Below, in pieces: positions 11,125 through 25,853 of a DNA stretch of 64,000 nt. The notes beneath the pieces were generated by a model, which ran no database searches, was not told the origin of the DNA, and saw nothing but the letters and a program-made list of their open reading frames with translations. Numbering within the stretch: position 1 is the first letter of the stretch; every line of letters starts with the position of its first letter. The stretch is from Thermoplasmata archaeon (GTDB taxonomy: Archaea; Thermoplasmatota; Thermoplasmata; Thermoplasmatales; Thermoplasmataceae): the NCBI GenBank assembly GCA_021817255.1, contig JAKAVO010000002.1, positions 1 to 64,000 on the forward strand. Reading direction: 5' to 3'. Position numbers and translations under genes: made by a program.

Positions 11125-11739
11125 TTAAATGAAACCCTGCCCAAGTACTGCGAGAAATGCTATGGAAAATGAAAGAAATATCAGGTATATGTAAAAGTTC
11201 CACTTCAAAATGGTGAATCCAACAAGTGGGGGAATGGGAAGGCTTGAGAGGACTGCAACAAGCAGATTAGAACTGCTTAATATTAATAACACAAGTTTGA
11301 GTGGGCCGGAAGTGAAGAATAAATAACCGGAAATGCCCAATCCGGCTGTCATATTTGCCATGGGGCCGCTAATTGCAATTTTTCCATCTATATCTTTATT
11401 GCCTGATGTTATCAGCCCTGTACTTCCTGGCAAAGAGATTATAAAGCCAAATATGGAAGTAATGAGCGCTACTATAATTCCTGACATGTATAATGTATAG
11501 TTCACCCTGATTCCGTACCTGTTTGCAACAAAATTAGTGGAGAGATAGTTAAGGGCAAATGCCACGAGGGAAGATAGTATGCCGGCTGGAAGCAGGATAA
11601 AAAGAAATTTTTCAGGTGCGTAACCATGGATAATTCGCCCATAGGCGATACTTATGGCAAGCCCCATTACTATGAAGGATATAAGAAAATCTTCCTTAAA
11701 TGAATGGTGCCTTGGGAAATTGAAATTTAATATGTCCAT
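11125..11739 (-). CDS. M50/site-2-protease-like membrane protein lacking catalytic motifs (predicted pseudoprotease)
   Basis: ALNYLSTNFVANRYG aligns by eye to HExxHxxVAxRYG of archaeal M50 proteins; GKIAISGPMANM matches GKISLAGPxxN; LPIPPLVG matches xPxPPLDG with D replaced. Confidence 0.7.
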   Translation of the reverse strand: MDILNFNFPRHHSFKEDFLISFIVMGLAISIAYGRIIHGYAPEKFLFILLPAGILSSLVAFALNYLSTNFVANRYGIRVNYTLYMSGIIVALITSIFGFIISLPGSTGLITSGNKDIDGKIAISGPMANMTAGLGISGYLFFTSGPLKLVLLILSSSNLLVAVLSSLPIPPLVGFTILKWNFYIYLIFLSFSIAFLAVLGQGFI

Positions 11740-14700
11740 TAAGCAAACCCGCCATCTAGGCTCTCAACAGCTACCTTTAGCTTTATGGCACCCCTTATTC
11801 CCAGGTTAAATTTAACACTGTAGACAAAAGGATTGGAAAATGGCATAGATGCTGCTTCATGAAGCAGTTTTACAGTAGCAGGGTCTTTTGGAATATGCTT
11901 TACCTTGAAATGGTAATATGAATCGTCCACATAATCCTTCAGCATCTTTGCAAGCTCTATGTCCTTGGATCCGTTTCCAAGGAAAAATAAAGGCAGATTT
12001 AGCTCTTCTACAGTTGTAATTCCCGTCTTCCTGTAAATATTTTTCATGATTCTGCACGACTCCCTCTCAAGATAATCAATGTCAATCCCTTCAAAATTTG
12101 TTGGAGTGTTGAGAAAGTCATATATCTCGTCGATCTTTGATACTTCTATTCTTGTGTGGACAACCGCTTCCCTTTTGTCTAAAAATTTGTTGTGCTTGAT
12201 GCAGGCTTTCATTAATTTCTCAGAAAGCGCTATGACTTTGGTTCTGTTAGCCGTTTTCTTAAGAACCCCCATAAGATAGGTAAACTTTTCCTGTGTCAGT
12301 GTTTTCTGGTGTTCCTTTGACAGTATGTCTTCTGCCATAGCAAAATTTCCTACCTTTATCAGGGTGAGAGTGACTGTTTCGGTAGAATCTTCATTAAGAA
12401 TTGTGGGGAACGCTTCGTACAGCTTTAAAACTTCTTTGTAAAGGCCGTTGTTGAAATTTATTCTTTCCATCCTGGCAAAGGCATCTGCCCTTTTGTCTTT
12501 TGCAATGTTTAGTTTAAGGTATTGCGAACAGTCTGTGTTTGCCTCTTCGAATTTGCCTGCATCTGACAGTTTCTCAACCAGGATGGAAATAATCCTGGCA
12601 TCCTCGGGATTATTGCGGAACAACATTCTCAGGACTTCAAGGCTGTCAGAGTTTTTCTGTTCGGAAATCATCCTTGAAGAAATATCCAGCCCAAGGCTGG
12701 TGTTTGCAGTCCTCTTTAATAATGAAATCAGCTGTGACCTGATAATTCTGTTCTCCCAGTATCTGTCAACAATATTTTCCAGTACCGGTTCCATTGAACT
12801 GTCCACTTTGTTTATTCCCTTAATCGTAAGGTTCAGTTTTTCAACGTTTCCTGAAACTTCGTATAACTTAAGTGTGAATGCAGGCTTATTTTTGAGTTGT
12901 TCAATCGATTTTTCTGCCTCCTTGAACCTCCCCTGTTCTATTAATGTTTCAACCAGCCCACCGAGAGTTTCCTCCTTTGTTTCTTCCTGAAGGCTCTTCC
13001 TGAAGAAATGTTCTGCCGTAATTGGATCTTTATTTACAAGGTAATAGTCTCCAAGTATGCCATTTATGCTTGCTGGCAATTTCAGGGAGGCGTATTCATT
13101 TATCACGCTGTCAAGTTTTTCTTTGCTTCCATACTCCTTGAGATCCATGATATAGTTAATTATGTCACTTTCTTCCTTTGTTCTCATTCCACATATTTTG
13201 CTGCCTATATTCAAAACTTCAATGAAATTCCCTTCCTTCTTTTTAACTTCTCTCAGTACCCTCAGGGATTCAGGGTTTTCAACGCCTGAAAATTCAAGAA
13301 GGTCAATGAAGTTTAAGAGTGATGGCTCATCCATTTTCTGTATTTTGCTGTAAACCAGCATCCATGGAACATAAAGCCCCCCTCCGGAACTGACAATTTG
13401 TTCTACCTCTTTTACAATCTCTTCCTCCCTGAGTTCATCAATTTTAACCTGAAGCATTAGCCCCCTGATGGGGTTTGCAGAAAGCAGGTTGTATGCTGAT
13501 TCCAGTTTTGCAGCTTTGCTCTTGCTTATCTTCACGCTGTTTTCTGAAATAATTTCAAAGTATGTGAGATAAGGATCCTGTTCCTGCAGGTTTAATAAGA
13601 TTTTCTTCGCCTCTTCATAATTGCCTTCCTTCAGGAAAAGGTTTATTCTGGGGTAATTGTAAAACATTAGATCCTGGCCCGGGCCAGTTCCATGTTGTTT
13701 TAATATTCCGTTTATTTCTGATTCCGCATCTTCTATGGAAGTGCTGTCAATTTGTTTCCATAACCTGTTCAGTTTAATCAGATTGCTTAATGCATTTCCT
13801 TCAATGAGCCCTTCGATTGTGCCCAGATAATTCTCCTTAAGGCTGTTGCCGTAAATATAATCCTTTATCAGATTGAGGTATGCGTTCAGTTGAATAGGTA
13901 AATTCCCACTGCTGCCAGCATAATTGGCCCAATTTTCATTGTTCCTCATTGTCCTTAGGAATGCGATGTGTATTCTGTCATCAATGTGCTGAAAATCAAG
14001 ATTGCGCACTGATGCTATGGCTTCTTCGACTTTTCCATTTTCCAGGTTTGCAATAATAAAGAATGGCAGCAATTCCTGGTTCTTGAGATCAAGATTGCTT
14101 ATTGACTGGACCTCTGTAATTTTGTTCCACATTTTCCTGGTTTCCATATCCTTCAAAAATTGGGATGTGAATGAAATATCTTCAGGGGAATCCTTGATAT
14201 ATTTTATGCACTTTTGCATATATTCCTTGTTGTTGCCTTCAAGTTTTGACAATTCTGCATCCAGTTTTAAACCGTTCTTGGAATTCAGGGTCTCCCGGGA
14301 TGCCTTTGCAAGTGTATCTTTAGCCTTTTTAAGATTATTTTCAAAAAGATATAGCTGTGCTACATAGAGGATTGATTTCTGGGACATGTTTTTGCCCATG
14401 CCAGAACTTTCAATGTAATCTATAGCTTCCCTGTAATTTCTCATTTTTACGCAGGCTTCAATAAAACTTTCCTCCAGTTGTTTTGAGGAACCCATGATGC
14501 TCTTCCTCTTAGTGAGGAACGCAATTATCCTTTCCCATTCGTTTGTTTTTCCAAGTGCATCAATATAAAGTTCAATTGCCTCCTGGTTGTTTTGGGATAT
14601 GAGAAGAATTTTTTGCAAAATGTCTATTGCATTCTGGTAATCCCCCACTTTTATAAATAGGGATGAAAGCCTTAAAAGAGAGCCCTCGTCCTTGAAATTT

Positions 14701-15377
14701 GCTATATCCACTGTTTTCAAAAGTGATACAAGGGATGGCGTCTCCATGTTCAGATCCAGAGTCTCAAGATAGTCTATTATGTAGTCAGAATTGGAGGGTT
14801 CTGCTATGGTGATGAGTTTGAGAAATTTCAACAGTTCCCTCTTTCCATTGCTGCTTTTATAATTCTTGATGATTTCCTTGTTTATCACGAAAGAGTTTGT
14901 GTTTATATATTTTCTAAACAGGTTTTCATCAAAAATTCCATTTGCGGATAGCAATAAAGCTGCGTAATCCCATAGGTCTGTAAGATCTGCAATTTCAGTA
15001 ATATTGTCAATAATATCCTGGGAATTGAACAGTTTGACGTTGGATTTTAAATATTCCCTTGCAAGATCTGTATTTTTTTCATTGGCAAGAGCCTTTGTGT
15101 AAAAGTTCTGTATCAGTTCACTCTCCCTGATAGCCATGTAAAAATGCCGGTATACGCTTGAATCCCATACATGCATATTTACCCATAGTTCCCTGACCAC
15201 AGTCTCAATCTTTGCCTTAAGTTCTTTATCTTTCTGCAATAAAAGTATGTATTCAGGAATCTGCAAAACTTTAACCAGTTTGCTCAACTGATCCTGTTTT
15301 TCATCCTCTTCTTTAGAATCAAGAAACCTGTCAATTATTTTGTTTAGATTTCTCTTTGACTCATCGCTTTCCAACAT
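11739..15377 (-). CDS. large TPR-repeat protein (1212 aa)
   Basis: Repeated helical hairpins of TPR type, e.g. LSSLFIKVGDYQNAIDILQKILLISQNNQEAIELYIDALG; LVETLIEQGRFKEAEKSIEQL. Confidence 0.85.
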   Translation of the reverse strand: MLESDESKRNLNKIIDRFLDSKEEDEKQDQLSKLVKVLQIPEYILLLQKDKELKAKIETVVRELWVNMHVWDSSVYRHFYMAIRESELIQNFYTKALANEKNTDLAREYLKSNVKLFNSQDIIDNITEIADLTDLWDYAALLLSANGIFDENLFRKYINTNSFVINKEIIKNYKSSNGKRELLKFLKLITIAEPSNSDYIIDYLETLDLNMETPSLVSLLKTVDIANFKDEGSLLRLSSLFIKVGDYQNAIDILQKILLISQNNQEAIELYIDALGKTNEWERIIAFLTKRKSIMGSSKQLEESFIEACVKMRNYREAIDYIESSGMGKNMSQKSILYVAQLYLFENNLKKAKDTLAKASRETLNSKNGLKLDAELSKLEGNNKEYMQKCIKYIKDSPEDISFTSQFLKDMETRKMWNKITEVQSISNLDLKNQELLPFFIIANLENGKVEEAIASVRNLDFQHIDDRIHIAFLRTMRNNENWANYAGSSGNLPIQLNAYLNLIKDYIYGNSLKENYLGTIEGLIEGNALSNLIKLNRLWKQIDSTSIEDAESEINGILKQHGTGPGQDLMFYNYPRINLFLKEGNYEEAKKILLNLQEQDPYLTYFEIISENSVKISKSKAAKLESAYNLLSANPIRGLMLQVKIDELREEEIVKEVEQIVSSGGGLYVPWMLVYSKIQKMDEPSLLNFIDLLEFSGVENPESLRVLREVKKKEGNFIEVLNIGSKICGMRTKEESDIINYIMDLKEYGSKEKLDSVINEYASLKLPASINGILGDYYLVNKDPITAEHFFRKSLQEETKEETLGGLVETLIEQGRFKEAEKSIEQLKNKPAFTLKLYEVSGNVEKLNLTIKGINKVDSSMEPVLENIVDRYWENRIIRSQLISLLKRTANTSLGLDISSRMISEQKNSDSLEVLRMLFRNNPEDARIISILVEKLSDAGKFEEANTDCSQYLKLNIAKDKRADAFARMERINFNNGLYKEVLKLYEAFPTILNEDSTETVTLTLIKVGNFAMAEDILSKEHQKTLTQEKFTYLMGVLKKTANRTKVIALSEKLMKACIKHNKFLDKREAVVHTRIEVSKIDEIYDFLNTPTNFEGIDIDYLERESCRIMKNIYRKTGITTVEELNLPLFFLGNGSKDIELAKMLKDYVDDSYYHFKVKHIPKDPATVKLLHEAASMPFSNPFVYSVKFNLGIRGAIKLKVAVESLDGGFA

Positions 15378-18699: not shown

Positions 18700-19572
18700 T
18701 TATTTTTTGGCGATCTTTTTAGGTTTCTCCCTTCTTGTTCTCCATTTAGGCTGTTTTGTCCCCCTTCCTCTTCCGGATGAAAGCCCCAGAAACACCATGA
18801 ATACAATTACTATGCCCGCTATGTAATATATCCAGTTATAGTTTGCAGGTTTGCCATAGAAGAATTTAGATGTGTAGGAAACTGAAAGTCCGCTTTTATA
18901 TGACGCTGAGTGAAGAATCTTTACTTGAAATGTATTGACTTTGCCGTAATCTACAGCAGTTGATATTACTGTAATGTTGAGGCTCTTCTTTGAATATGGC
19001 GACAGTTTGCTAATTGTTTCTGTTTTCAGGGTGACCCCATTAATTATAAAATCAAGAGATACGTTATAGTAAGGCACATAATTGGAATTGTAGATTTCTG
19101 CGTACAGTTTTATTGGAGCAAAAACCTTGACGTTAAATGAGGATGTGTAATTTACCGGTGTGCCAAGAAATGTTGCAGTAACGATTACAGTTCCATGAAT
19201 TGTTTGGTTAGCAGCTTCAGGAGCGGTGATGCTGAACTCAAAGAATCCATTTTTTGAACTCTTATGGGTTGTATTTACAGGGGACATCCCCTTGACATAA
19301 TTAGCTCCCAGGTATAGCGTGGCATTATAGTTGGAATAGCCTGAAGTTGAGTTTACAAAAACGGAAAAGTGTTGCCCTTCATATGCCTGGGATATGAGGG
19401 AGATTGATGACTTGAAGCCGCCGCCAGAAAAAAAAGTTGATTCCTTACTGTTGAGAGCATTAGCCTGTGCCTGATGAGTGTGCGTTGCACCTGCTGAAGC
19501 AAATGTGACGGGAACAGACATCATTACCACTGATAGTATGGTTAAAACTACAATAAACGTTCGCCTATTCAT
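18700..19572 (-). CDS. secreted/type I membrane protein with Ig-like ectodomain and basic cytoplasmic tail
   Basis: N-terminal signal, several N-x-S/T sequons, C-terminal TM (IYYIAGIVIVFMVFLGL) followed by RGRGTKQPKWRTRREKPKKIAKK; ATGA overlap with the aglB-like gene. Confidence 0.7.
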   Translation of the reverse strand: MNRRTFIVVLTILSVVMMSVPVTFASAGATHTHQAQANALNSKESTFFSGGGFKSSISLISQAYEGQHFSVFVNSTSGYSNYNATLYLGANYVKGMSPVNTTHKSSKNGFFEFSITAPEAANQTIHGTVIVTATFLGTPVNYTSSFNVKVFAPIKLYAEIYNSNYVPYYNVSLDFIINGVTLKTETISKLSPYSKKSLNITVISTAVDYGKVNTFQVKILHSASYKSGLSVSYTSKFFYGKPANYNWIYYIAGIVIVFMVFLGLSSGRGRGTKQPKWRTRREKPKKIAKK

Positions 19573-22500
19573 TTTCTCTTTCTCCCCCTTATTGCCACTG
19601 TAGATATTCCTCCTATTACTGCAATTGCGATTATTATTAGCCCGTACTCAATAGTTGCAAATGGATCGCCAGTATAGTTCGAGATTACGCCCGGGCCCTT
19701 TGAATACACCGTAACACCCGGAACGTTTGGTGAAGTATATTGGATGGATATATACTTCGTTTCATTTGTATTTGTAAGATTGGCGACGACTGCTATGTTA
19801 AATGTGCTCACCGGGTGTGATCCTGGAGTAAAGACGATGCTGATCACTTTTGACTGCGAATAATTCAAGGTAATATTGCTTACCGCATGTCCTTTATATA
19901 ACAGGCTAACGTTCCAGTTTTCTGTAACCAGGCTTTGTATTAATGACGAGTTTATTGACAGATTAACATTTTCCCTTGTGTTGCCTGTGTTAGTGACCTT
20001 ATATTGTAAGATGGAAGAGCCATTGTTATAGCTTGGGGCAGTATTTAGTTCCTTGATGCTGAAATTCAGGTTCTTTGTTAAATTAACCTTTACATAGTCA
20101 TTCAGGGAGCCACCGTTATAAGATATCTTGATTGGAACTGAGTTGACACCTTCTGGAACCAATTTCTTGTTGGTTAAAGTTACCTTTATGCTTACCGTTT
20201 TGTTGATTGCAAGGTTGTGGATCACTGACTTGTTGAAAGACATTGACCATGCACTGCTGCCTGATGCAAGAGTTATATTTTCCATTGAATTAAGGTGGTT
20301 TCTAAATGTCAGGTTGTACGTTACAGAGTGATATTCAGTAGTATTGCTGACCTCTTTCTGTGATATTGTTATGTTTCCTATTAGAATCTTGCTGAGAAAC
20401 AGGTTAACGACCCTTGACTCATTTGTGTTGACTGTCTGAGAGTTCCTGTATGCGTAAGAGGTTGTGTAGCCGTTTACTGTAACACTATTAGACATGTATG
20501 CAGAGAAAGCATAATTCTCTGATGGCAACAGTATGGGATTTCCATTTGACCCTATCCTGAACAATTCTTTATTCAATGTTATGTTGACAGGCAAGGATTT
20601 CAGATTTCCAGATACGTAGGTGTTTAATGAAATCAAGTTAGCTTTAGTAGCCCTTATGGCCAGATTATCCGTGGCTTCAAAAGGAGATATGCTAAACACT
20701 CCTGTTCCGGCCATGCTATAATCTGTGGAGTACACATAGTAGGTGTAATTTCCATTAAAGAGATGGAGCGAGAAGCTTCCATTGCTTTTTGTAACTGCCT
20801 GATCTACCATCGTTCCGTTTTTATAGATATTCAAAAAGTATCCTGATACCAGATTTCCGCTGGCGGAAAGTTTCCCATTCACATTTGTCTTGAAGGTGTA
20901 ATTATTTCTTGCCAGGGTAAGGCTTGTTGAGGTGGTTAAGTCGATGTTCTTGCTTCCGGAGTAAATGAATTCACCACTGCCTGTTACAATATGTGAAGTC
21001 AGGTTTACGTAATATTGCCCAGCAGGAAGCAGATTCTTCATGTTCGGCAGAGCCAGAATGTGCCCATTGGCCATTATTTTCAGGGATTGGTTTCCTATTC
21101 TGCTGTTCAGTATACTGAGGCTATAGGACTGTGTTAGAGATGCTGCCATAGTAGTGTTCTGTGAGAGAGTAACTTCCTGAATAGCAGCTTTGTTGCCAGC
21201 TATTGAGTAAACGGTGTAATTTCCAGGAGACATCATGAATGGATTTGTAACCAGGTTTCCATTCTTGTTGTAGATATCCATTGTGTTTGCGTTGGAAATT
21301 GATAATGTGACCTTTGGTGTATAGCTTACGTTCAATGACATATTTGACATGCCCACTGTGAAAGTGTTTGTGTAGTTTAAAGCATACATATTGCCACCGG
21401 TCATTGTGAAAACATAACTGCCTGAAGGCAACGAAGCTTTTGCGGTCCCATTTATTATTTGCAATGTTGCAGTGGATGTGCCATATACGTTCAACTTTCC
21501 ATTCAGAAGTGCTGCTTTTTGGTTGGCATGGAAATTTAACGTTACTTCTTTTGAACTTACTATCAGTGGCACGGCTACAGACTGGCTCAACTTATCAGAC
21601 ATTCCAGTATATCCGGAACTATAAACCCTGAGCGAGAATCCACTTAGAGAGGGATTCTGTGTAAAAATGGTGGCATATCCGCCACTTATGTTTACAGCTT
21701 CAAACGGATTTCCGGATAAGTTGAAAATTGCTGCTCCTGAACCAACAGCCGAAAGAGAGTTGAATGACCCCGTAATTCCCGGATTAAACACTTCTATTCT
21801 CTCAATTGTGGCGTTTGTGGGTTTTAAAGCAATGAGTCCAGTCGAAGTGATGTGCGAAGTTGTGGATGCATAGTAATTCTTTCCTGCTTTGCTAATTGTT
21901 TCATAGAAAGTGTATTTAGAATTGGATGGCAACTCCACAGTTAAATTTTTAAGTTTCGAGGCTCTGAATTGCAGTATGCTTTGGCCGGAAATAATTCCTA
22001 TGGTTCCTGAATACAGGCTTAAATTGACATTATTATTGATAACAGATGTATTAAGGCCCTTTGTAAATTGGAACGTAAAACTTGAAGTTTTGTTTATGTT
22101 GAATGAATTAAATACCACATAATTGCTGACATTCTTATATACTGTATAGTACCCAGGAGCGACAAGGCCAGTAAACACATTATTCCCAACGTTTGTAAGG
22201 TTTTGGTAGGCACCCAAATCTCCATTCTCAAGCAATGAAAGATTTCCATTTGCTTCCGGGCCCGTTAATGTTACTGTTGCATTTACGCCTCTCCTGAGGT
22301 TCAATGTTACTAATTTGGTAGTATTCAGGTTTTGGAATGTTACTTTGTTTACATTTGAAATAAGATCTCCAAAGCTTGCACTCACCAGATAACTGCCGGA
22401 ATTTACTCCTGCAGTTATCTGCCCTGTGCTATTGGTTATGAATTTTCTTCCTCCAATATTTACAGTTACTCCGGAAGCCACTTTTCCGCTTAAGCTTACT

Positions 22501-25500
22501 TTAACATTAAGTGTATTTTTCTGGATGACTATATTCTTGGCTATGTTAGTACCATTTGCAATTGTTATGATGCTTACGTCATTGTAAGTAGTGCCGTTTG
22601 TGTGAACGCTTACATTGTAAATTCCCATGGGTATGTTTTGGAAATTGTATTTCCCGTTCACTAAATTAACAGCAAATTTTTGGTTGGATGAGCTATTTTC
22701 CATTGTAATCCTTCCACTGTTTACTGGCGTGTTCTTGGCACCCGTTGAGGTTGGTGTTTGCAGGGTTACGTTGCCAGTTGCAGACGTGCTTGAAGTAATC
22801 AAGTTCTTCTGTATGTAATAATTAGGAAGGCCCGTTGTTTCGTTGATTCCATAGACTTTTCTTTCTGCCATAGCTCTGCTTACAAATATCTGCTTGGAGG
22901 ATAGGAAGCTTTTCCCCTCCAAAAATTGCTTATTTAGTGCACCATACGAATAGATCAATGTGTCATTTCCGGGCAATGCAGTGATGTTGTAATAGCCATT
23001 CTTATTGGTTACAACTGTACTGTGAGGTACGTTGTACTGGTCATAAACGGTAACTCTGGCACCGGGAACAGGTGTTCCTCCAGGTGTTTTGACCTGTCCT
23101 TCAACGACTGCACCGGGGAAATATCTTATTATTGGATCAGAAGATTGAATTATTGATGACAGTCTGGGAAAAATAAAAGCTGTTCCTTTCCCAGAATGTT
23201 CAAGGGAATATGCTTTTTGAAGTGGTTTAACTGTGAAATTGTTGAGGTGGCTCGAATAATTTGTATAAGGATTATATGGAACACCCTCATAGCAAATTTC
23301 AAAATTGCTCATATTGTATGCGGGTTCCATGGTATACCTTGAACTCCCGTACGAAAGTCCGGGTATCCCATTTGTCTGCCCCACAGCTGAAGGTGGCAAC
23401 CCTATCAGTGTTTTGTAAATTGTGGTGTTGTAAAATGCCGGAGTGTATCCCAGCTGATAAGATGTTACTGAAGCAGTAGGCGGCGTTAGATTGAGTGGAA
23501 ATGTGCCATTAGTGGTCACTGCATAGATTTGATAATAGTTATAAGGAACTATAGCTCCGGATGACGTTGTGTATGTTGGAGTGTTGGTTAAGTAAGAAGG
23601 CGCATAGAATGTTCCGGTGTTTACAGCTGAGAGCGGAAACAATGTGTGGTCAACCTGAATATATTGAATACTCCACCCTGTCACATGTTGAAGTTCCTGG
23701 TACAGGTTAACAAGATCTGGCAGGCTTAGTTTAGAAGCCAGCTGACCCTTTTCGAGGGCATAATATGCATTTGCGCTGGATATGCTTGAGTTGAATTTTC
23801 CATATATTGTTGAATTTTCCCTAATCCAGCTTTCATATTGCACTGGATTTTTATATATGTTCTGAAGCAGGTTAATTTCAGAGTTGTTAAAATACTGGGA
23901 AAGCACATTTTGCATGCCTGGAGAAAACTTGCCGCTTGAATTGTCCAGGGAAGCTTGCATTAATCTCGCAGAGAAAAGTGCAATAATTTGAGATTGGTTA
24001 GTGGAGAGCAGAATCTGACCCGCTACCTGATACGCTTGCTGAAAATCATCCGCAACTGTTGGGTGTTGGCCCTGGTAGAGTTCCTGGAAGCCATAATCCC
24101 ACCAATTAACATAGGCAGGCTTGTCTTCAAGAGAAAGGTTTGCCTGTTGTTGGGCGAACCATGCCATTGACTGGGACAGAGGGCTGCTGCTGTTTGTTAT
24201 ATCTGACCCGGTCTGGCCAAAATAAGCACTCTGGTTAGCAAGGTACTGTGGTGGTTTTGCAAATGCCGGCAATGATGAATATACCTGGTGGTTCACGCTT
24301 GAAGCTGAGTTGACGGGCACTGCTGCTGACATCACTCCAAGCCCGGACGGAATCAATATTCCGAATACAACTATAAGAACCATTACTGCCTGGAGCCATG
24401 AGACATCCCCTTTAATTCCACTTCTCTTCCTGAAAGCTTTTTTAGTTCTGGTATCGTCCTTTACGTTGGCGAGTTTTAGTATGTCTGCAAAATAATACAG
24501 GAGAGCTCCCCCCATAATTGCATAAGCTGGTGACGCTGTGATGTTAAATCTTGCAGCTGTGAAACTCATATATATGGATACACCTGAAAAAATAATTAAA
24601 AATGCGAGGGAATCAGTTTTTTCCTTGATAAATTTATAGATTACAAACATGAATCCCCCTATTCCAACCACGAACTGGGCGACTCCGAACCCACCAATGT
24701 ATTGGCCAAGCGCTGGAGCCTGAGCCTCTGCGATTGTAGAGTAGAGCCTGGATTTAATGAAGTATCCTTCACCACTAACAATTTCGGCATATATATGTGG
24801 AGAAATGAAGTAAAGTGCTCCAACAAATGCACCCACGGTCAAAACAAGAACCGGAATTGCAATTATCCATGGTTTTCTGCCGACAATTCCTATGAGGGCT
24901 GCTATGAAAATTACAGCCACTCCTATCAGAAGAGGTGGGACAAACCATATTGCCGGTGCGTTTGGAGCTGTGAAGTAATAGTAATAGCCCATTGCAAAGG
25001 CAAGAGGCACAAAGATTGCTGTTATATAAAGCAGATATCCAGTGTTTCTGGACAGGAAAAGATTTATCAGCAATTGTACAACAACATATATAGCTATAAT
25101 TGCAAGAATATAAGCATGTCCCTGCCATGATAACATAAGGGCACCATATGATGCACCTGCAAATAAAGCGTAAAACGTTGGTTTTTTATTCGAGCGAATG
25201 TAATTTACGATACTTTCATAATAAGAAGTTACTTTCAATAAGCTTCCTTCTATTACCCTGTTTTTATTGGCGCTCTGCACCGCTCTTTCAAAGAAGTATA
25301 TCGCAAAGAATGCGAAGATAAGTTCTGGCGTATGCATTCTCCCATCTGAAAGTATTCCAGATGTAAGGTTGCTTGGCATTAAAGTGTAAAGGACTGCAGC
25401 TATCATGCCTGCTTTTCTTCCAAGGATGCTCTTTCCCAAAAGGTAAACGGGGATGATCAAAAGAGCACCAAAGACAGCATCAAATTCCATAAATGAGTAA

Positions 25501-25853
25501 TATGCTGCGGTCGTTGCGCCACCAAATAGAGGTGCGGTGATTGTTGCAACAAATACAATCATCCAGTGGAAAAATAGTGGCCTTGGGTTTCCAGACCCGA
25601 TAGGGTAATTTAGTCCAATTGTGTGGAGCGGCGATGCATGCGTTGCAAGTATCCTAAGTATAATATAATAATTGAAATATGGATCACTGCCACCGGAGAA
25701 ATTCCCAAATCCATCAAGGAATGTCTGCCCCCACATGTAAAAATTAGATAGAAACATATAGAGTGCAAATAGTAACAGGACTCCTGCGAATTCCCAATTT
25801 CGGCTGAACCAGCCTCTTAATTTCTTTATAGATTCAATTTCCTGGAGTTCCAT
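19569..25853 (-). CDS. aglB: AglB/STT3-family oligosaccharyltransferase with very large repeat-rich extracellular C-terminal extension
   Basis: N-terminal multi-TM region with FLDGFGNFSGGSDPYFNYYIILR (catalytic DxD-region-like), WWDYGFQELYQGQHPTVADDFQQ; then CarboxypepD_reg-like (GQVKTPGGTPVPGARVTVYDQYNVPHSTVVTNKNGYYNITALPG) and NEW3-like domains and a C-terminal TM. Confidence 0.9.
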   Translation of the reverse strand: MELQEIESIKKLRGWFSRNWEFAGVLLLFALYMFLSNFYMWGQTFLDGFGNFSGGSDPYFNYYIILRILATHASPLHTIGLNYPIGSGNPRPLFFHWMIVFVATITAPLFGGATTAAYYSFMEFDAVFGALLIIPVYLLGKSILGRKAGMIAAVLYTLMPSNLTSGILSDGRMHTPELIFAFFAIYFFERAVQSANKNRVIEGSLLKVTSYYESIVNYIRSNKKPTFYALFAGASYGALMLSWQGHAYILAIIAIYVVVQLLINLFLSRNTGYLLYITAIFVPLAFAMGYYYYFTAPNAPAIWFVPPLLIGVAVIFIAALIGIVGRKPWIIAIPVLVLTVGAFVGALYFISPHIYAEIVSGEGYFIKSRLYSTIAEAQAPALGQYIGGFGVAQFVVGIGGFMFVIYKFIKEKTDSLAFLIIFSGVSIYMSFTAARFNITASPAYAIMGGALLYYFADILKLANVKDDTRTKKAFRKRSGIKGDVSWLQAVMVLIVVFGILIPSGLGVMSAAVPVNSASSVNHQVYSSLPAFAKPPQYLANQSAYFGQTGSDITNSSSPLSQSMAWFAQQQANLSLEDKPAYVNWWDYGFQELYQGQHPTVADDFQQAYQVAGQILLSTNQSQIIALFSARLMQASLDNSSGKFSPGMQNVLSQYFNNSEINLLQNIYKNPVQYESWIRENSTIYGKFNSSISSANAYYALEKGQLASKLSLPDLVNLYQELQHVTGWSIQYIQVDHTLFPLSAVNTGTFYAPSYLTNTPTYTTSSGAIVPYNYYQIYAVTTNGTFPLNLTPPTASVTSYQLGYTPAFYNTTIYKTLIGLPPSAVGQTNGIPGLSYGSSRYTMEPAYNMSNFEICYEGVPYNPYTNYSSHLNNFTVKPLQKAYSLEHSGKGTAFIFPRLSSIIQSSDPIIRYFPGAVVEGQVKTPGGTPVPGARVTVYDQYNVPHSTVVTNKNGYYNITALPGNDTLIYSYGALNKQFLEGKSFLSSKQIFVSRAMAERKVYGINETTGLPNYYIQKNLITSSTSATGNVTLQTPTSTGAKNTPVNSGRITMENSSSNQKFAVNLVNGKYNFQNIPMGIYNVSVHTNGTTYNDVSIITIANGTNIAKNIVIQKNTLNVKVSLSGKVASGVTVNIGGRKFITNSTGQITAGVNSGSYLVSASFGDLISNVNKVTFQNLNTTKLVTLNLRRGVNATVTLTGPEANGNLSLLENGDLGAYQNLTNVGNNVFTGLVAPGYYTVYKNVSNYVVFNSFNINKTSSFTFQFTKGLNTSVINNNVNLSLYSGTIGIISGQSILQFRASKLKNLTVELPSNSKYTFYETISKAGKNYYASTTSHITSTGLIALKPTNATIERIEVFNPGITGSFNSLSAVGSGAAIFNLSGNPFEAVNISGGYATIFTQNPSLSGFSLRVYSSGYTGMSDKLSQSVAVPLIVSSKEVTLNFHANQKAALLNGKLNVYGTSTATLQIINGTAKASLPSGSYVFTMTGGNMYALNYTNTFTVGMSNMSLNVSYTPKVTLSISNANTMDIYNKNGNLVTNPFMMSPGNYTVYSIAGNKAAIQEVTLSQNTTMAASLTQSYSLSILNSRIGNQSLKIMANGHILALPNMKNLLPAGQYYVNLTSHIVTGSGEFIYSGSKNIDLTTSTSLTLARNNYTFKTNVNGKLSASGNLVSGYFLNIYKNGTMVDQAVTKSNGSFSLHLFNGNYTYYVYSTDYSMAGTGVFSISPFEATDNLAIRATKANLISLNTYVSGNLKSLPVNITLNKELFRIGSNGNPILLPSENYAFSAYMSNSVTVNGYTTSYAYRNSQTVNTNESRVVNLFLSKILIGNITISQKEVSNTTEYHSVTYNLTFRNHLNSMENITLASGSSAWSMSFNKSVIHNLAINKTVSIKVTLTNKKLVPEGVNSVPIKISYNGGSLNDYVKVNLTKNLNFSIKELNTAPSYNNGSSILQYKVTNTGNTRENVNLSINSSLIQSLVTENWNVSLLYKGHAVSNITLNYSQSKVISIVFTPGSHPVSTFNIAVVANLTNTNETKYISIQYTSPNVPGVTVYSKGPGVISNYTGDPFATIEYGLIIIAIAVIGGISTVAIRGRKRK

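Follow-up and report, generated by a model that had tools for sequence, protein, structure and literature searches.

Except in eukaryotes and in Asgard and TACK archaea, oligosaccharyltransferases (OSTs) are regarded as enzymes consisting of one polypeptide of ~600–1000 aa. The closest described counterpart of the protein considered here is AfAglB-L of Archaeoglobus fulgidus (868 aa; PDB 3waj, 5gmy, 7e9s). The giant AglB shares its membrane core, its DXD1, TIXE and WWDYG motifs and its C-terminal globular domain of ~370–390 aa, but carries in addition a 1190-residue extension and a second membrane anchor that AfAglB-L lacks. There is also a likeness, in resemblance only, to the eukaryotic/Asgard OST and TRAP, where STT3 is accompanied by luminal or extracellular beta-sandwiches and by single-pass proteins with basic tails. 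In the giant AglB, however, the additional domains form one chain with the catalytic subunit, and the Thermoplasmata partner protein is of the CARDB type and was recognised neither as TRAP nor as OST1. TRAP has been reported only in Asgard archaea and eukaryotes, and OST1 and OST3/6 only in TACK, Asgard archaea and eukaryotes (PMC11417166). The AglB genes of Cuniculiplasma have been noted before, in passages that do not comment on their size (PMC5155288). A literature search covering the giant AglB, Thermoplasmatota OSTs, the partner and dead homologues or pseudo-OSTs returned no description; subscription journals lay mostly outside this search, and an earlier description there is possible.

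The window, that is, the whole stretch of 64,000 nucleotides analysed here, comes from a Thermoplasmata archaeon (contig JAKAVO010000002.1). The first-pass annotation had read one of its genes as a giant 2094-aa AglB, in which an OST is joined to a large repeat ectodomain that is rich in sequons and ends in a second membrane anchor, and this reading is correct. It overlooked a coupled partner gene at 18700–19572. The features of the locus are as follows.

19569..25853, minus strand: giant AglB, a single frame of 2094 aa (open reading frame call; same frame in dozens of genomes of the order)
24309..25853, minus strand: transmembrane catalytic core, residues 1–515 (TIGR04154, AfAglB profile match, hydrophobic segments)
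25683..25685, minus strand: Asp57 of DXD1, GGSDP (alignment)
24726..24737, minus strand: TIXE motif TIAE, residues 373–376 (alignment)
23139..24308, minus strand: C-terminal globular catalytic domain, residues 516–905 (PDB 3vgp/3vu0 matches; conserved in the class)
24090..24104, minus strand: WWDYG motif, residues 584–588 (sequence motif)
22704..23138, minus strand: first, conserved extension domain, CarboxypepD_reg-like, residues 906–1050 (Pfam PF13620; low column entropy to about residue 975)
19674..22703, minus strand: fast-evolving, sequon-rich string of beta-sandwiches, residues 1051–2060 (domain, entropy and structure-model evidence)
19572..19670, minus strand: second membrane anchor and basic tail, residues 2062–2094 (hydropathy; conserved in order and class)
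19569..19572, minus strand: ATGA overlap of the aglB stop and the partner start (offset −4 in nearly all loci of the order that were read)
18700..19572, minus strand: coupled partner, 290 aa, with signal peptide, CARDB-like domain, transmembrane segment and basic PKW tail

The aglB frame opens with ATG and reaches its stop without interruption. By its motifs the protein is an STT3/AglB-superfamily oligosaccharyltransferase in a giant form, a variant within a known enzyme family and not a new kind of system. The NCBIfam model TIGR04154 (archaeosortase-associated STT3) covers residues 25–623 with E 1.8e-49, and the score of 168.9 bits does not reach the curated 450 bits; judged from the profile, the giant AglB is a distant relative and is not placed within this subfamily. 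A family profile matches the AfAglB structures 3waj/5gmy with E 7.6e-8. Pfam PF02516 gives no match in the window's own genome at E 0.001. This model detects even intact relatives only patchily, and its silence is therefore uninformative for membership, which the sequence motifs decide.

The WWDYG motif, which had been placed near residue 580 at about 24.1 kb and in fact begins at residue 584, is invariant across the order. GGSDP aligns to GGNDP of AfAglB, the first DXD with the catalytic Asp, and TIAE corresponds to the TIXE/SVSE motif of external loop 5 and is invariant in set A2; TIXE and the other motif names are those of the AfAglB structure paper (PMC8342417). The second DXD (Asp161/His163 in AfAglB) aligns to SDGRMHTPE, where the Asp is present and the His is absent at the aligned place; many class members have DHD at this position. 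Non-canonical forms of the second DXD in Thermoplasmatales include SDGRMHTPE and GWGGYDD (window ~25.3 kb, residues 166–182; L075, L103). N-glycosylation is nonetheless reported in the order; the metal ligands of Thermoplasmatales AglB may differ. At the DK/MI position the aligned stretch is VDHTLFPLS (VDSRMFPFS in the class), with no clear DK or MI and with uncertain placement. Simple hydropathy gives 9 to ~13 merged hydrophobic segments before WWDYG, the reference count being 13 transmembrane helices, and the model predicted for the catalytic half (mean pLDDT 47) is too poor for use. A single AglB was found in the genome, and N-glycans occur on the pilin of C. divulgatum (PMC12448462). Since this is the only AglB found and that pilin is glycosylated, the core is probably an active enzyme.

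More than 1000 residues had been said to follow the catalytic part; past the AfAglB-sized core (residues 1–905) there are ~1190. Of the repeat types proposed for them, the carboxypeptidase-regulatory one stands, with a Pfam CarboxypepD_reg match at 917–970 (E 4.5e-13), and the NEW3-like one has no Pfam match. Carboxypeptidase-regulatory-like folds are very widespread. A likeness to EMC7 and NOMO rests on one domain (1041–1120) that matches the EMC7 beta-sandwich exactly at the cut-off (E 7.7e-6) and on a sub-threshold match to NOMO1-like_9th. Against it, no more than 5 of 12 homologues match EMC7. A NOMO-like ectodomain was rejected, its Pfam signals being sub-threshold and the hits of the fold search generic strings of beta-sandwiches. 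The proposed AlphaFold check, run on residues 895–2094, gave almost only beta strand ending in a single helix (mean pLDDT 67.7), with a pTM of 0.46 that leaves the domain type usable and the overall shape of the arm not. Foldseek with this model found only generic multi-sandwich proteins at global TM-scores <0.2, which carry no information on overall arm shape. Cysteine is absent from residues 906–2060. The second anchor has its hydrophobic segment at 2062–2091, and AIRGRKRK, the basic tail that had been described, is present too.

The density of N-x-S/T sequons claimed for the extension is borne out. Residues 906–2060 hold 51, as against 31.6 ± 4.5 in composition-preserving shuffles, and counts over 39 order members give 2343 N-x-S/T against 1279 of the reversed S/T-x-N. 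All 39 aligned order members keep two sequons, N619 in the catalytic domain and N963 in the first extension domain, which would be possible sites of structural glycans.

The partner gene, translationally coupled to aglB, lies directly downstream of it. The partner has a homologue in 109 of the 117 order genomes, and a recognisable aglB-adjacent partner occurs across the class, methanogens included, and in some relatives outside it; a plasmid search found no homologue. In the genus, pheT lies upstream of aglB and is on the opposite strand in some members; because its strand varies, aglB and the partner stand out as the conserved unit. The PKW tail is invariant in the aligned order members, 35 of 38 partner members match CARDB (best E 1e-12), and PDB matches on the CARDB-like region reach E 9e-9, while the window's own partner has no Pfam family above the cut-off in its genome. 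Sequons outnumber their reversal by 323:115 in the aligned set. Derivation of the partner from the terminal domains of AglB by duplication was considered and is unsupported (hhalign probability 41%, 62 columns). The partner is a candidate OST subunit, genomic adjacency not being proof of physical association. Elsewhere in the window, the frame of a 1212-aa TPR-repeat protein (11739–15377, minus strand) overlaps by its stop with the start of a membrane protein of 204 aa (11125–11739) that has no Pfam match.

The architecture is not unique to the window genome. In the order, 109 of 117 genomes encode the giant AglB, most as one frame of 2030–2134 aa, and the 700–1000 aa quoted as typical for archaeal AglB thus fails there, ~2030–2134 aa being the norm. 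Across the class the STT3 model picks up 190 of 200 genomes, and most of the frames measure ~1830–2440 aa. Each of the 16 class proteins tested is matched by HMMs of the order's extension (residues 1051–2055), with E values from 1e-44 to 1e-101. Since the extension is homologous in all of them, the giant form is, on this homology, the ancestral AglB of the class Thermoplasmata. The same HMMs match ten long proteins from a sample of the wider phylum, weakly in places. Outside the class, some families of the phylum have an AglB of 1130–1430 aa lacking the C-terminal transmembrane segment, some the canonical 910–1004 aa, and others 3000–3300 aa. Families f47 and f55 (L115–L117, L127) have an AglB of ~3170–3280 aa in which WWD lies at about residue 950 and an additional N-terminal ~350 aa precede the usual membrane core, and L129 (G286) is a 2317-aa homologue with WWD twice, at 340 and 720.

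Conservation changes along the protein. The first ~1000 residues are conserved across the order; past ~1050 the column entropy climbs from ~1.5 to ~2.4 bits with gaps of just 0–4%. Median identity to the window protein falls from 51–52% in the core to 44% in the first extension domain and to 23% over residues 1051–2055, and yet the length after WWDYG is 1517 ± 18 aa (41 proteins). In genus g2 (L081/G041, L082/G043, L089/G042) AglB has 1425–1442 aa, with ~650 arm residues missing internally; both arm ends and the partner gene are kept.

In one family of the class, f11, the giant protein has lost its active site. All 22 f11 genomes tested have mcrA, and the family is therefore methanogenic; it probably corresponds to the Methanomassiliicoccales. 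WWDYG and TIXE are missing in 17 of the 18 f11 proteins read, and DXD1 too in most, with WIDYS, WFGNS, WFLDS and others in place of WWDYG. These 17 (L105, L106, L133–L142, L144–L148) are candidate pseudo-oligosaccharyltransferases and form one clade on a long stem. Their frames are open for 1831–2029 aa in 16 cases, the remaining one ending at the contig end. The basic tail is kept wherever the end was read, the terminal transmembrane segment in the proteins of intact length, and the partner is present in 12 of 12 dead loci searched. G226, also of f11, has a catalytically intact AglB with the partner on another contig. With PF02516, a model of low sensitivity for this clade, a second STT3 was not found in f11 genomes. 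The dead proteins show no sequon bias (ratio 1.09), and neither do intact relatives from f8 and f24/f32 (1.07–1.19, four proteins); sequon loss was therefore rejected as proof of lost N-glycosylation in f11, and the lack of a sequon excess in intact f8, f24 and f32 counts against a glycosylated arm as a universal feature. Because f11 keeps the giant protein and the partner after loss of the active site, its retention indicates an AglB function that is separate from catalysis and would outlast it.

Members of the order Thermoplasmatales mostly lack an S-layer. C. divulgatum has none, and shows a dense exterior protein layer of ~20 nm and of unknown composition (PMC12448462). By known AglB topology, the arm of ~1150 beta-sandwich residues would be extracellular and form an arch tethered to the membrane at both ends. 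The core would N-glycosylate surface proteins, probably also its own arm and the partner. Arch and partner would together form a membrane scaffold with a role apart from catalysis, probably a glycosylated surface element of S-layer-less cells. With ~13 domains of ~4 nm each, by our estimate, the arch would stand 20–25 nm high, about the thickness of the layer of C. divulgatum, to which it perhaps contributes. An OST need not be abundant, which counts against such a contribution.

This reading, an active OST whose glycosylated arch and partner have a scaffold or surface role independent of catalysis, has in our estimate slightly less than an even chance of being right. The constant length after WWDYG despite a fast-evolving arm, the sequon excess, the linkage of the partner and the f11 proteins argue for it; the loss of ~650 arm residues in g2 argues against it, full length being dispensable there. 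A surface scaffold, an auto-glycosylated coat and a substrate-capturing arm had all been offered for the extension. The first two are favoured over the third: the distal arm changes quickly while its length stays fixed, and in f11 the protein outlives its active site.

The third proposal, in a wider form, is the strongest rival and may be called improbable though serious. The ectodomain and the partner would hold or chaperone proteins leaving SecY, with the basic tail of the partner contacting the ribosome or translocon, and would correspond in function to the OST1 and TRAP subunits of eukaryotes and Asgard archaea. In favour, the partner is encoded together with AglB, is single-pass and has a conserved basic tail in the cytoplasm, and Asgard OST1 binds ribosomes via a cytoplasmic domain with basic patches (PMC11417166). 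The dead f11 forms retain the whole membrane core, which suits a translocon-bound scaffold. However, conservation is lowest in the distal arm, which is unlike a surface that binds a conserved machine, and the partner matches CARDB, with no match to TRAP or ribophorin (OST1) models among the 25 families shown. Still less probable is that the extension is for the most part a passive, glycosylated shield or spacer, guarding the enzyme in acid and lacking any specific partner or role as a scaffold. A near-constant length under fast evolution, richness in sequons and the dispensable middle of the arm in g2 agree with a shield, whereas a giant form that is class-wide, non-acidophilic methanogens included, that is kept in f11 where catalysis is lost and that is strictly linked to a partner does not. 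A frame or assembly artefact joining AglB to a separate surface protein is excluded for practical purposes, as the single frame of 2030–2134 aa recurs in dozens of independent assemblies, single-contig genomes among them, even though isolated split copies occur, such as L083 (G069), broken at about residue 1232 with the remainder in another frame, likely by a frameshift or sequencing error.

Returning to the scaffold interpretation, its fullest statement, which we hold a little more tentatively than the interpretation itself, is that Thermoplasmata have a two-subunit OST in which the catalytic subunit also serves as a glycoprotein arch at the cell surface, with a structural job separable from catalysis and a pseudo-OST in a methanogen family. 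A whole class with a 2000-residue OST, a built-in ectodomain and a coupled partner contrasts with the view of these enzymes as single polypeptides, and one order of this class, Thermoplasmatales, has an exterior protein layer. In methanogens the dead versions offer a naturally occurring case in which enzyme and scaffold functions come apart, and they make the loss of N-glycosylation in those methanogens a testable question.
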